From positions 1,375 through 26,749 of the IMG/VR virus record IMGVR_UViG_3300030329_003169: a stretch of 25,375 bases of DNA, one strand, 5' to 3'. Source of the stretch: a virus. Shown piece after piece: positions 617 to 22,136 of the stretch. A model generated the notes under the pieces. That model ran no database searches and was not told the origin of the DNA. It saw nothing but the letters and a program-made list of their open reading frames with translations. The position numbers and the translations under genes are program-made. Within the stretch, counting starts at the first letter, position 1. Every line of letters starts with the position of its first letter.

Positions 617-999
617 TTTTTCTTAAATAATTTGGTTGCCGATCTAACTCCAAATGAGGCCGCAACAATTGTTCCTAAAATAATTTTGTAATAATCGGGG
701 GCTGCGTCTAATGCCTCAAAACCTCCAAAAACAATCTCACGGCCCCAATCTCCACAGAAGCATAGTATCAGGGGCAAACAGAAAACAATAGTTAACGCTT
801 CATCTTTAAGGCTATTTTGACTGCCTTGAGCCATAATTTTTTCCCAGTCAGCTTCGTGATTAGCGGCCTTTCGATAAACATCCGCTTCAGCCGATGCTTT
901 TATTTTGGCTAATTCGGTGTTTGACTTTTGACGCTCAATGCGTCCCTCTACAAATGTTCCAACCACATTGGCGATTGGACTAATTAAACTTTGCCACAT
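613..999 (-). CDS. Holin, resembling the GTA-type 3TM holin family
   Basis: This 128-residue membrane protein has a charged N-terminal half (residues 18-66, helical, Lys/Glu/Ala rich) and two clear hydrophobic segments at about 69-83 and 104-119, with a lysine-rich C-terminus. The block DWEKIMAQGSQNSLKDE just before the first segment followed by a short LPLILCF run matches what is known of the GTA_holin_3TM family (PF11351). It would form lesions in the inner membrane that let the M15 endolysin reach peptidoglycan. The SD AGGAGAGC precedes ATG 999. Its tail overlaps the endolysin start, supporting coupled expression. Confidence 0.8.
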   Translation of the reverse strand: MWQSLISPIANVVGTFVEGRIERQKSNTELAKIKASAEADVYRKAANHEADWEKIMAQGSQNSLKDEALTIVFCLPLILCFCGDWGREIVFGGFEALDAAPDYYKIILGTIVAASFGVRSATKLFKKK

Positions 1000-1029
1000 T
1001 ATTATGCTCTCCTATACTTTGCTGTTTTC

Positions 1030-1188
1030 TTAGCTATTTTGGTGAAGAAAAAATATCAACGCAGAGCAGCTATCGGTTGGTTGCTTGCCTTTCTTGATAT
1101 CTTCTCTCTTTTTTCTAGTAGTAGCTAAATATTCTATAGCCCTTGCTGAGTGTTTTTCACCCATTTTATTTTTTGCTTGTGTACTCAT
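1030..1188 (-). CDS. Small basic protein of unknown function (52 aa)
   Basis: The start ATG at 1188 is preceded by AAGGGATGAAA, a usable Shine-Dalgarno. The product is strongly basic in its first 37 residues (many Lys and Arg, including TRKKREDIKKGKQ) and ends with a short hydrophobic stretch ALIFFL near residues 43-48. It overlaps the end of the upstream 55-residue gene by 23 bases and stops about 30 bases before the holin start, so it fits the compact late operon. I do not recognise a family. A basic N-terminus and hydrophobic tail could suit a DNA- or membrane-associated accessory protein, but this is speculation. Confidence 0.5.
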   Translation of the reverse strand: MSTQAKNKMGEKHSARAIEYLATTRKKREDIKKGKQPTDSCSALIFFLHQNS

Positions 1189-1333
1189 TTTCATCCCTTA
1201 AAAACCTCAGAGCTTCATCTTTATTTTTAAACTCTTTAACTCTTACCCCATTGGGTATTTGCCAGTTTTTTTGAATACTGACTGCTCTCCAATTTTTAGC
1301 AGAATCTAGCCAGGCCAACCATCTAATCTCCAT
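1166..1333 (-). CDS. Hypothetical protein, 55 aa (start chosen at MEIRW)
   Basis: The frame is open from 1375, but the internal ATG at 1333 overlaps the stop of the preceding EF-hand gene in the sequence ATGGAGATTAG, the usual spacing in this operon, so I chose that start. The product has a tryptophan-rich N-terminus (W5, W8, W15, W23) and a charged C-terminus (KEFKNKDEALRFLRDENEY). The Shine-Dalgarno is weak, so expression may depend on translational coupling. No domain is recognised. The earlier GTG/ATG at 1375 would add 14 residues lying inside the upstream gene. Confidence 0.5.
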   Translation of the reverse strand: MEIRWLAWLDSAKNWRAVSIQKNWQIPNGVRVKEFKNKDEALRFLRDENEYTSKK

Positions 1334-1652
1334 TCTTTCGTTTTGACCAAGCACTTGTAGCCATAAATGAGCCAATTATAGCAAAATTAGAGACATAGAA
1401 AGTGCTTAACAAAGCTGAAATGGTGTCAATACGAGCGATTGGAACTAGAGGAGTCATAACAAGTGCTACACTCACAACGACACTCGCCAACGACACCCAA
1501 CACATTATCCTTTGCTGATCTGCCATTTTATCCGCATTTTCAATACGAATCATTTTTTCTTCACGCTTTAATTCTTCATCAGAAACAACGCCATCTCCAT
1601 CAAGGTCATGTACAGCATACCGACTATCAGGCTCAAATTTTTTCTGCGTCAA
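1323..1652 (-). CDS. Membrane protein with one EF-hand motif (TTG start)
   Basis: The product has a canonical EF-hand loop near its N-terminus, DLDGDGVVSDEEL, with acidic residues at positions 1, 3, 5 and 12 of the loop as in calcium-binding EF-hands. Two hydrophobic segments follow (WVSLASVVVSVALVM and a second one around FYVSNFAIIGSFM), ending in a basic KRK tail. The frame opens at GTG 1685, but a good Shine-Dalgarno (TAGGAG) lies eight bases before TTG 1652, so I prefer that start, giving 109 residues. EF-hand membrane proteins of this type recur in marine phage late regions; their role is not established. Calcium sensing at the membrane around lysis or adsorption is only a guess. Confidence 0.65.
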   Translation of the reverse strand: MTQKKFEPDSRYAVHDLDGDGVVSDEELKREEKMIRIENADKMADQQRIMCWVSLASVVVSVALVMTPLVPIARIDTISALLSTFYVSNFAIIGSFMATSAWSKRKNGD

Positions 1653-6509: not shown

Positions 6510-6537
6510 TATAAAATAGGGGTGTTACCACCCCTAT
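6510..6537 (-). terminator. Intrinsic terminator-like hairpin before the fibre module
   Basis: On the minus strand a nine-base-pair perfect stem (ATAGGGGTG / CACCCCTAT) closes a GTAA tetraloop of the GNRA type and is followed by TTTTATAT. It lies between the probable decoration gene and the fibre module, so it probably reduces fibre transcription relative to capsid genes. Confidence 0.75.
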
Positions 6538-6544
6538 CCTCTGT

Positions 6545-6868
6545 TTACCAAGCTGGTCGCCCAACAATCACTTTTGCTGTAGCCGCACCAAGATTTTTAG
6601 CACCGCCAGTGTTGTTCAAGGCTTGAATGTTTAAAGTGTTAGCTGCCACTACCGTTGAGGTAATGGTCACATCTTCATTATCTATTGATAATGATACACC
6701 TAAAACCATATCTCCAAGGGCTAACCCGTCTACTGTTCCCTGATGGTCATTTTCATCACCATCAGCGATATTATCAAAATCAACAGCACACGTTACAACC
6801 CACATTTCACTAAATGCACCTGGAAATTGCTGGACACCCCTTGCTTGAGTAATGCTAGTTAAAGCCAT
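6545..6868 (-). CDS. Probable head decoration / minor capsid protein (107 aa)
   Basis: This protein directly follows the major capsid gene, the usual place for a decoration or head-stabilising protein. It starts MALTSITQARGVQQFPGAFS, is rich in beta-branched residues and contains DGLALGDMVLGVSLSIDNED and TVVAANTLNIQALNNTG, ending in VGRPAW. Such proteins recur next to capsid genes in marine podoviruses, but I know of no confirmed function. It sits between two intrinsic terminators, so it would be transcribed by partial read-through from the capsid gene and separated from the fibre genes. ATG 6868 is preceded by TAGGAGATAAAA. Confidence 0.6.
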   Translation of the reverse strand: MALTSITQARGVQQFPGAFSEMWVVTCAVDFDNIADGDENDHQGTVDGLALGDMVLGVSLSIDNEDVTITSTVVAANTLNIQALNNTGGAKNLGAATAKVIVGRPAW

Positions 6869-19386: not shown

Positions 19387-20634
19387 CTAATATCCACTCA
19401 CTAAGTCAAAAGGTTCATAATCGTCTAATTCCATGTCGTTATCGTAAGGCGTAAAAGCTACCTGATCTGTGTAAGCTAAAGCATCAACAAGGTCGTCATG
19501 GGCTAGGGGGTTTGGAAAATCGAGAAGCTGCGTTATAAAGGGCTGATTCCAATGCCCCTTATTTAGGGTGATAACCCCTCGCTCAAAGCGACCTTGCAGT
19601 GCCCATACTACACGATCTACCTTACTTTTACCGCCATGCGACACACTTTCTATTCTCGGGTAAAAACCGATTCGCCTCATCTGGTCTTCCATATAAGGCA
19701 TAACAGCATTCATTAAAGCCCCCCTCTCAATAGCAATACATCTTGCTCCTGTTTGTTGGGCTAAACGAAGTAAACGAACACTTGTCTCCCTGGTATTCCA
19801 CCTTCCATGCTCTAAATCACCAAGAAACCAGCCCCCTTCATGGACTTTAACCGCCCATATCGCTGTTTCATCCAATTTTGCTGTTGTAATGCCACGACCT
19901 TTAGTCGCTGCCTCAAATCCAGCCAAATCTGCCACCACATACCAATCCCCGTCATCTGGCTCTTCGCCATAGGTAATCCACTCTTCTTTGAAAATTCCCG
20001 AATTAAAGCTCTCGAAAGAAGCTTCTAATTCCTGTCTCGCTACTTGTGTCGAAAGGCTGTCGTAGCTTCTTTGGACTTCTTTTGCATCTAAAAAGGGATT
20101 GTCCATTGATTTAAACTGATAAGCTGACCAATCATCGGCTTCAATGGCATAGTTAAATAATTGGAAAAAATGGTTCTTCCCATTGGGAGTCCCAATGAAC
20201 AAACACGACCCTTTCGAGTCAATCAAAGCACTACGGACAATCTCCTCCCATATCATGGGCTTGATTGAAGCATATTCATCAATCACACAGTGAGCCATAG
20301 CCACACCACGCAAACTGTCAGGACGGTCACTTCCTGCTATGTGAATCTCACGCCCGTTAATTAAACGCATAGTCGCTGTGTTTTCATGGGTAAACTCAAT
20401 TAAACCCTTACCAACCTCTTTCATGGAACGCCACATAATACGCTTTCCCTGCTCAAAGGTCGGAGCTATGTAATACACATCATGGTCTTTAGAGCGTAAT
20501 GCCTCAATAAAAAGCGTATATAAAGCCAGACGGGATTTGCCCCATCTTCGCCCTGCCACAACAATCTTAAACCTAGAAGGGTCGTTATAAACATCTAACT
20601 GTTGTGGGTGTAGAGATACCTTAAAATCACTCAC
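19387..20634 (-). CDS. terL: Terminase large subunit
   Basis: The ATPase has Walker A A27-GRRWGKS-34, with the Arg-rich form usual in terminases, and Walker B VIDEYA with D119 and E120. The coupling motif LFIGTPNGKNHF is near residue 145. The C-terminal nuclease has acidic candidates in VVADLAG (about 230) and DDLVDALAY (D380, D381, D384). The protein docks on the portal, pumps DNA and cuts concatemers. GTG 20634 is the first possible start since an in-frame TGA directly precedes it. It has no good Shine-Dalgarno of its own and overlaps a 29-codon upstream ORF by eight bases, so translation is probably coupled. At 415 residues it is short but plausible for this group. Confidence 0.92.
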   Translation of the reverse strand: MSDFKVSLHPQQLDVYNDPSRFKIVVAGRRWGKSRLALYTLFIEALRSKDHDVYYIAPTFEQGKRIMWRSMKEVGKGLIEFTHENTATMRLINGREIHIAGSDRPDSLRGVAMAHCVIDEYASIKPMIWEEIVRSALIDSKGSCLFIGTPNGKNHFFQLFNYAIEADDWSAYQFKSMDNPFLDAKEVQRSYDSLSTQVARQELEASFESFNSGIFKEEWITYGEEPDDGDWYVVADLAGFEAATKGRGITTAKLDETAIWAVKVHEGGWFLGDLEHGRWNTRETSVRLLRLAQQTGARCIAIERGALMNAVMPYMEDQMRRIGFYPRIESVSHGGKSKVDRVVWALQGRFERGVITLNKGHWNQPFITQLLDFPNPLAHDDLVDALAYTDQVAFTPYDNDMELDDYEPFDLVSGY

Positions 20635-20744: not shown

Positions 20745-20772
20745 AATACTAGCATAAAAAGGGGCAAGGCTT
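20745..20772 (-). promoter_or_regulatory. Repeat copy 1 with extended -10-like TGCTAGTAT (minus)
   Basis: On the minus strand the 3' arm of paired-arm element 1 and a T5 tract are followed by ATGCTAGTATT. TGnTAGTAT resembles an extended -10 element; no -35 is seen at proper spacing. A start near 20738 would give a short leader holding the ribosome-binding site of the 29-residue ORF and terL. The same sequence recurs at 20870-20900. Confidence 0.4.
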
Positions 20773-20850
20773 ACAAGATAAGCAAACGTCCAAATTTTGG
20801 TGTCATTTTACTTTTATTGCTATTTTAACTTGTACACAGAGCCTCGCCCT
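20761..20850 (-). repeat. Paired-arm element 1 (inverted arms, T5 tail on minus strand)
   Basis: The arms at 20840-20850 and 20761-20771 can pair in the minus-strand RNA (AGGGCGAGGCT with AGCCTTGCCCC, including a G-U pair), followed by CTTTTTATG. The loop of 68 bases contains the near-palindrome CCAAATTTTGG. It resembles a terminator with an oversized loop, or a protein-binding inverted repeat. Confidence 0.5.
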
Positions 20851-20869
20851 CTATCTCGCATCATAAAAT

Positions 20870-20900
20870 AATACTAACATAAAAAAGCAGGGCAAGGCTT
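20870..20900 (-). promoter_or_regulatory. Repeat copy 2 with extended -10-like TGTTAGTAT (minus)
   Basis: This direct repeat of 20745-20772 shares AATACTA-n-CATAAAAA and GGGCAAGGCTT in the + strand. On the minus strand it gives CTTTTTT, then ATGTTAGTATTAT. TTGCCC lies 16 bases before TATTAT, a second possible promoter reading. Confidence 0.4.
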
Positions 20901-20942
20901 GGAAAGGTTGGCTTTCCCAAAGTAGGAGGTTGCCTTACCCTG
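20888..20942 (-). terminator. Paired-arm element 2: terminator-like structure at the end of terS
   Basis: An 11-base arm pair with one mismatch (20888-20898 with 20932-20942) encloses a six-base-pair internal hairpin (GGAAAG/CTTTCC, 20901-20917). On the minus strand it is followed by TGCTTTTTT. The right arm overlaps the terS stop codon, so this probably ends or attenuates the terS transcript. Confidence 0.6.
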
Positions 20943-21177
20943 ACTCTATAACCCTCTTAGCTGACTCAACCTGTATATTAATAGCTATAGGACGACTACC
21001 AGCCGTATCATCAACAGCCTTCTGTATAGGCACTAGACGATCCATACACATCTTAATAGCCTCTAACTGCTTGGGGTGGTCATCATGCAAAGCAATCTCT
21101 ACCAGCCTCGAAGCTATCTTAGGAGCATTGTGTGCCAGTGTCTCCATAGACTCTGTCTTAAATTTTGCTATTTTCAA
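20935..21177 (-). CDS. terS: Probable terminase small subunit (80 aa, TTG start)
   Basis: The first gene of the late strand lies just upstream of terL, where the small terminase is expected. It starts at TTG 21177, five bases after a strong AGGAG; an in-frame TGA shortly upstream and the absence of ATG leave this start. The 80 residues (AHNAPKIASRLVEIALHDDH, then LEAIKMCMDRLVPIQKAVDD) are helical with the pattern A-P-x-I-x-x-x-L-V-x-x-A-L...A-x-K-x-x-x-D-R-x-x-P, as in short TerS-like proteins of environmental podoviruses. It would recognise the packaging site. It lacks an obvious N-terminal HTH, so it may be a reduced form. The call rests mainly on position. Confidence 0.65.
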   Translation of the reverse strand: MKIAKFKTESMETLAHNAPKIASRLVEIALHDDHPKQLEAIKMCMDRLVPIQKAVDDTAGSRPIAINIQVESAKRVIESG

Positions 21178-21445: not shown

Positions 21446-21474
21446 TTGACACTTGTAACTGATACAGGCATAAT
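21446..21474 (+). promoter_or_regulatory. Sigma-70-type early promoter
   Basis: TTGACA and CATAAT are separated by 17 bases, close to the bacterial consensus. The predicted start near 21481 is about 38 bases upstream of the first early gene and its GGAG site. It would let host RNA polymerase drive the early operon at once after entry. Confidence 0.85.
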
Positions 21475-21518: not shown

Positions 21519-22136
21519 ATGGATAAAATACATATGAGTGTTATGTCGGGTAAGCTAGACGGGTTACGTGCCATTAGCACGAACACTAAAAGCAACAGTT
21601 TTTGCCAGAAAATGTTCAATTCAGGTAAAAAAGATAATATATGTACGGTCTGCTATTCTAATAAAATGCTACGCACATATCGAAAGAATATGGAACCAGC
21701 ACTTCAACGCAATTCTGATTTATTGAGTAAACCTGTTTCTGATGCCATTTTAAAGGCCACTAGGATTCTAGATAGCTTTTTACGCATTAACGCTCATGGT
21801 GAGCTAATCAATGAGCAACATCTAGCTAACATTGTCAGGCTTGCAGAGTTAAAACCACACTGTAATGTAACATTGTGGACTAAACGAGCCGATATTGTGC
21901 GTAAATACTTTGATAATCATGATAAGCCTGAAAATTTGATATTGATATTCAGTAACAGTCTCATAGGTAACATCATGACAAAACCACCTCGGCATTTTGA
22001 TAAGACGTTCAACAACGTGCCGGAGTCTATGTATAAAGACAAACAAAATTGTACGGGTCAAAAGTGTGCAGACTGTCTCTTATGCTATCAACACAATGGA
22101 GTAGACACAATCGTAGAAAAAGTTAAAAAATATTAA
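21519..22136 (+). CDS. GP88-like cysteine-rich protein
   Basis: The 205-residue product has cysteine pairs at both ends: C29 and C42-x-x-C45-Y near the N-terminus and C-x4-C-x-x-C-x-x-C-Y near the C-terminus (NCTGQKCADCLLCY). Between them lies FLRINAHGELINEQHLANI and VTLWTKRADIV. This agrees with phage GP88-type proteins (PF17338) as I recall them: early CxxCY, a R-x-x-x-x-G-E/D-F/L block, a (Y/W)TK motif and a late Cys cluster. The function of that family is unknown; the cysteines suggest a bound Zn or Fe-S cluster. It is the first gene after a strong promoter, so it should be made early and abundantly, suiting host takeover or defence evasion. Confidence 0.65.
   Translation: MDKIHMSVMSGKLDGLRAISTNTKSNSFCQKMFNSGKKDNICTVCYSNKMLRTYRKNMEPALQRNSDLLSKPVSDAILKATRILDSFLRINAHGELINEQHLANIVRLAELKPHCNVTLWTKRADIVRKYFDNHDKPENLILIFSNSLIGNIMTKPPRHFDKTFNNVPESMYKDKQNCTGQKCADCLLCYQHNGVDTIVEKVKKY

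Follow-up and report, generated by a model that had tools for sequence, protein, structure and literature searches.

In the late operon of this virus, the space separating terS from terL holds two tandem elements. We think it probable that each is an intrinsic (rho-independent) terminator acting in one direction and joined to a sigma70-type promoter with an extended -10, and that together they would form a transcription boundary within the operon. The material analyzed is a 25.4-kb window, meaning the whole stretch of DNA under study, within a 29.6-kb uncultured virus record; seven virus contigs (L001 to L007), with TerL identities of 78 to 99%, served as relatives for comparison. The minus strand of the window carries the head and tail genes, running from a terS-like gene (21177 to 20935) to terL and on to the portal and capsid genes. 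The terS-terL spacer is 300 to 311 nt long, with a G+C fraction of 0.375 versus 0.409 and otherwise no marked shift in base composition. Read along the minus strand, it holds element 2 (arm, nested hairpin, arm, CTTTTTTATGTTAGTATT), element 1 (arm, loop, arm, CTTTTTATGCTAGTATT), a micro-ORF, and then terL. The features are as follows.

20935 to 21177, minus strand: terS-like gene, 80 aa, TTG start, preceding terL; homologous to the pre-terL gene of L001 and L002 (95 to 96%) and to more distant loci
20861 to 20944, minus strand: element 2, an 84-bp insertion in the alignment with L001, L002, and L003; the relatives pass from GGGTTATAGA directly to the next terS codons
20932 to 20942, minus strand: 5' arm of element 2 (L2), CAGGGTAAGGC, forming an 11-bp stem with 20898 to 20888; pairing probability 0.96 to 1
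20898 to 20920 (bounds approximate), minus strand: nested hairpin within element 2 (GGAAAG CCAAC CTTTCC region), from the RNA fold
20888 to 20898, minus strand: 3' arm of element 2 (R2), GCCTTGCCCTG, pairing with L2
20879 to 20887, minus strand: T tract of element 2, CTTTTTTAT, a predicted termination point
20870 to 20881, minus strand: extended -10-like putative promoter of element 2, TATGTTAGTATT, predicted start at about 20864
20840 to 20849, minus strand: 5' arm of element 1 (L1), GGGCGAGGCT, forming a 10-bp stem with 20771 to 20762; pairing probability 0.95 to 1
20762 to 20771, minus strand: 3' arm of element 1 (R1), AGCCTTGCCC, pairing with L1; AGCCTTGTCC in L003
20754 to 20761, minus strand: T tract of element 1, CTTTTTAT, a predicted termination point
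20745 to 20756, minus strand: extended -10-like putative promoter of element 1, TATGCTAGTATT, predicted start at about 20739; also kept in L003 and, in the form TGTGTTAGTATT, in L001
20627 to 20716, minus strand: unannotated micro-ORF of 29 codons, VFKILLIFMLCFPVYAHHETEEVETHLSE*, which begins like a signal peptide and overlaps the start of terL; L003, L005, and L007 carry homologues
19387 to 20634, minus strand: terL, GTG start; PHROG terminase large subunit (3e-33) and Pfam Terminase_6N (4.7e-15)

The 80-aa TerS-like protein has no match above cut-off among the PHROG or Pfam families; the gene in the terS position of a distant relative, L015, bears a DUF5681 domain, unlike the window protein. 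The micro-ORF product may be secreted or membrane bound. Four of the six changes in the L003 homologue of the micro-ORF are synonymous.

The earlier note had described four cores of alternating orientation arranged in two inverted-arm structures, and a core scan with GGGCAAGGC, allowing up to one mismatch, confirms this arrangement on the late-gene (minus) strand. Copies of the GGGYRAGGC core lie, in plus-strand coordinates, at 20762, 20841 (reverse), 20890, and 20932 (reverse). These four in the 311-nt spacer compare with a dinucleotide-shuffle mean of 0.08 (maximum, 2), and just three more copies are found in the remaining 25 kb of the window. Stem and T-tract units with stems of at least 10 bp appeared at least once in 14 of 1,000 dinucleotide shuffles and twice in none of the 1,000; a scan of the whole window returned few further units of this size, one of them at 6538 to 6515. 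The stem of element 2 has 11 bp, seven of them G-C, and that of element 1 has 10 bp, with seven G-C pairs and one G-T pair. The loops measure 33 nt (element 2) and 68 nt (element 1), and both contain inner stems, that of element 1 being ACAAG/CTTGT. RNA folding gives the arms pairing probabilities of about 0.95 to 1, save for 0.54 at the outermost pair of element 1 in a longer transcript, and the fold of the 216-nt region has a z score of -3.3. Element 2 does enclose the nested hairpin (GGAAAG/CTTTCC) and overlap the terS stop as had been noted, the TAA codon (20937 to 20935) falling within arm L2. The proposed duplication holds for the right halves of the elements (arm, T tract, and tail), which align over 31 columns with 27 identities, a single substitution, and two short gaps; it does not extend to the loops, which are mutually unrelated. 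Recombination may have given rise to the second copy.

The G+C-rich inverted arms, followed on the transcribed strand by a T tract (CTTTTTT in element 2 and CTTTTT in element 1), are those of an intrinsic terminator. The T tracts adjoin the arms only in the late-gene direction, with none beside the arms on the opposite strand. Unlike the usual intrinsic terminator, the elements have longer loops with inner hairpins, stand two in tandem between late genes, and carry an attached promoter-like tail. Loop length counts against our interpretation, since 33 and 68 nt are long beside the typical, though not strictly required, 3 to 8 nt, and a standard terminator scan (loop of 3 to 8) missed both elements. 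The same arms, however, form short-loop terminator-like hairpins with T tracts in the unrelated bacterial contigs L301, L303, and L313 (AGAGGGCAAGGCTAAAGCCTTGCCCTCTTTTT in L301 is an example), so the arm sequence appears to be simply a good terminator stem, and the suggestion that the arms are more conserved than a simple terminator would require is not upheld. A further point against the interpretation is that terminators within a late operon would be costly if no working promoter lay behind them.

Behind each T tract is TATGYTAGTATT, a tail of the TATG(C/T)TAGTATT type, so that the T tract and subsequent ATG(C/T)TAGTATT first noticed on the minus strand are indeed present at both elements. 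At the level of sequence match, TATGCTAGTAT and TATGTTAGTAT both fit the sigma70 extended -10 pattern of TRTGn plus TAnnAT. The hexamer TAGTAT matches the -10 consensus at four of six positions, and no good -35 was found at the tails, except for TTGCCC/TATTAT at element 2. The pattern TRTGnTAnnAT has two matches in the whole window, each directly behind a T tract, against a chance expectation of about two; because of this expectation and because the two copies are related, the argument for promoters comes mostly from position and retention. Promoter function is thus the weaker half of the terminator-promoter proposal. The imperfect -10 match, and a loose motif expected about twice per window by chance, would also suit a plain double terminator, in which the ATGYTAGTATT tail is shared only because it was copied as part of the right half and no promoter exists; most of the conservation is explained by the stem and T tract on their own. 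We regard this explanation as unlikely. It would leave terL behind two terminators with no start, and L001 retains the tail (as TGTGTTAGTATT, in the context TGTGTTAGTATTGCC) though the hairpin is absent. The L001 tail differs by an A-to-G change at the second position of TRTG, where the extended -10 consensus allows A or G (PMC2613000), and this retention without a hairpin, with a permitted change, is the best indication that the tail may act as a promoter.

Comparison with the relatives displays a series of states, from none in L002 to the tail alone in L001, one element in L003, and two in the window. L002 (TerL 98%, TerS 96%) has no spacer; its terS overlaps terL, and both the arms and the micro-ORF are absent. 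In L001 (TerL 98 to 99%, TerS 95%), a 225-aa ORF of no known family (805 to 1482, plus strand) lies between terS and terL where the micro-ORF otherwise sits. The TerS proteins of L001 and L002 differ from that of the window in one internal residue and the last residues; neither contig has arms at the junction, and no arm with fewer than two mismatches occurs in their records. L003 (TerL 94%) has a single element homologous to element 1 of the window, with arms GGGCAAGGCT/AGCCTTGTCC. Its arms, T tract, and tail are retained with one mismatch in 49 nt, and its loop is altered and 25 nt shorter (about 43 nt, compared to 68 nt in element 1 of the window); such change in the loop, with the other parts conserved, is the pattern expected of a terminator. 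The L003 junction is locally very close in sequence to that of the window, including about 48 identical bp of terS, and the conservation of the tail between the two may come partly from recent recombination. The insertion of element 2 is clean and is flanked by GGGTTATAGA and TGCGAGATAG, the latter being similar to the end of the L003 terS. In L005 and L007 (TerL 79%) the junction holds nothing but a micro-ORF, again of the type with a signal peptide and then HH. Other relatives with enough upstream sequence have no hairpin with a T tract between the upstream gene and terL, although in some of them the closest ORF on that side may be a gene other than terS. Covariation of the arms could be followed in three sequences only, in which three pairs vary, each kept by G-T wobble with no double change. 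Taken with the stem-loops, the late-direction T tracts, and the TRTGnTAGTAT behind each, the presence or absence of whole units among relatives supports the earlier description of a duplicated terminator-promoter cassette.

The arms and tail were found only at the terS-terL junction, both in the 29.6-kb record and in the L001 to L007 records, which rules out a genome-wide regulatory repeat in these records. Pattern scans for an element common to other phages or hosts returned only L003, unrelated terminators, and coding matches. No Rfam RNA family reached the gathering threshold, and sub-threshold matches were weak. A search of genome contigs for a prophage that would point to the host yielded no TerL relative.

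The location between terS and terL and the four-fold repetition of the core had also raised the prospect of a pac or cos site, with the paired arms bound by TerS and the concatemer cut at the junction. The pac site of P22 lies within the TerS gene and is an asymmetric sequence of 22 bp, and cos is a sequence-specific nicking site (PMC9611059). The present elements resemble neither in sequence type; they are like P22 pac and lambda cos in lying beside terS, but they are dyads with T tracts and are absent from phages with near-same TerS. Phages using a near-same TerS should keep a pac or cos site, yet L001 and L002, with TerS 95 to 96% and TerL 98 to 99% identical, have no arms at the junction, and a packaging site therefore seems very unlikely. 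Arm spacing and loop also differ between the window and L003, a change in loop length that a fixed protein-binding dyad would probably not easily tolerate, and a DNA site needs neither T tracts nor strand polarity. Three of the seven close contigs (L003, L004, and L005) do end within about 260 bp or less of the junction, as real DNA ends might, but assembly breaks at a strain-variable site explain these ends equally well and are the likelier cause, and contigs L002, L007, and the window run uninterrupted through the junction. A phi29-type packaging RNA is likewise disfavored by the absence of the elements in phages with 98 to 99% identical TerL.

Four alternating arms can also pair in a nested alternative (R2:L1 inside L2:R1), computed at -56.4 kcal/mol against -58.9 kcal/mol for the two terminators, and the junction might on that basis hold an attenuator whose re-paired arms allow read-through, or RNase III-type processing hairpins that separate the terS and terL mRNAs. 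Such a role appears highly improbable. The alternative pairing follows automatically from four alternating copies and is impossible in L003 with its single element, and during transcription arm L2 would encounter R2 first. The loop of element 1 contains an 11-codon ORF that L003 lacks, so that no conserved leader peptide is seen and a leader-peptide attenuator was rejected.

With the two elements as tandem terminators with promoters, transcripts of terS would enter the first hairpin, whose 5' arm holds the terS stop codon, and would end at its T tract; the second hairpin would be met by read-through and by transcripts from the first promoter. Transcription would then restart at TATGCTAGTATT (about 20739) and cover the micro-ORF for the putative secreted or membrane product, followed by terL and the remaining late genes. 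We propose that a restart downstream of the terminators would uncouple terS dosage from that of terL. The unit itself would be accessory and perhaps mobile, being gained, lost, and doubled along with the small gene content of the junction.

In these respects the unit is reminiscent of the signals that flank a moron, or of a promoter/stem-loop (PeSL) cassette. The morons of lambdoid phages are ORFs inserted between phage genes together with a promoter and a terminator (PMC1524935). As with morons, a small extra gene stands with a promoter-like signal and a hairpin between core genes and varies among relatives: the micro-ORF is present in the window, L003, L005, and L007, absent from L002, and replaced by the 225-aa ORF in L001. 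Unlike morons, the terminator here precedes the small gene, and there is no marked shift in base composition beyond the lower G+C of the spacer. The hairpins lie upstream of the micro-ORF rather than after it, and no terminator follows the micro-ORF because its sequence overlaps the start of terL. PeSL cassettes of T4-type phages (Arbiol 2010 and Comeau 2014, as cited in PMC4503421 and PMC3950731) are, in those citing descriptions, likewise compact units of promoter and stem-loop placed where gene content changes, and by sequence the present elements have the same two parts. Compared with what the citing papers describe, the elements occupy a single site in the genome record, in the late region and with a different promoter sequence, rather than being scattered in many copies through the shuffling regions of a T4-type genome, and the genes seen in the window give no sign of a T4-type phage.

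With one element or none in the nearest relatives, the elements are best read as ordinary, swappable control elements, a further instance of an already known kind. Rather doubtful is a more far-reaching view, in which the unit is a small terminator-promoter cassette that recombines, occurs outside the T4-type phages, and by spreading creates a hot spot of gene gain between an otherwise abutting terS and terL; in its doubled state it may also be a two-state RNA switch, given that the nested alternative folds nearly as stably as the two terminators. The junction suggests how a core operon that is usually tight, with terS often overlapping or abutting terL, can acquire a small accessory gene along with a boundary in transcription, and three or four intermediate states of such a gain are visible among close relatives. 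It also advises caution, as dyads beside terS are readily mistaken for packaging sites; comparison with relatives that have near-same TerS can argue strongly against such a site.

On the early side, divergent from the late operon, the window has a gene at 21519 to 22136 (plus strand) with a Pfam GP88 match (2.7e-11), and a strong sigma70-like promoter match, TTGACA-17-CATAAT (11 of 12 positions), lies ahead of the rightward genes at 21446 to 21474 (plus strand). The unit at 6515 to 6538 (minus strand) is a short, perfectly paired hairpin, GATAGGGGTG/CACCCCTATT, with a T-rich stretch behind it; it lies just past the gene at 6545 to 6868, which is itself downstream of the major capsid gene, and is a probable terminator.
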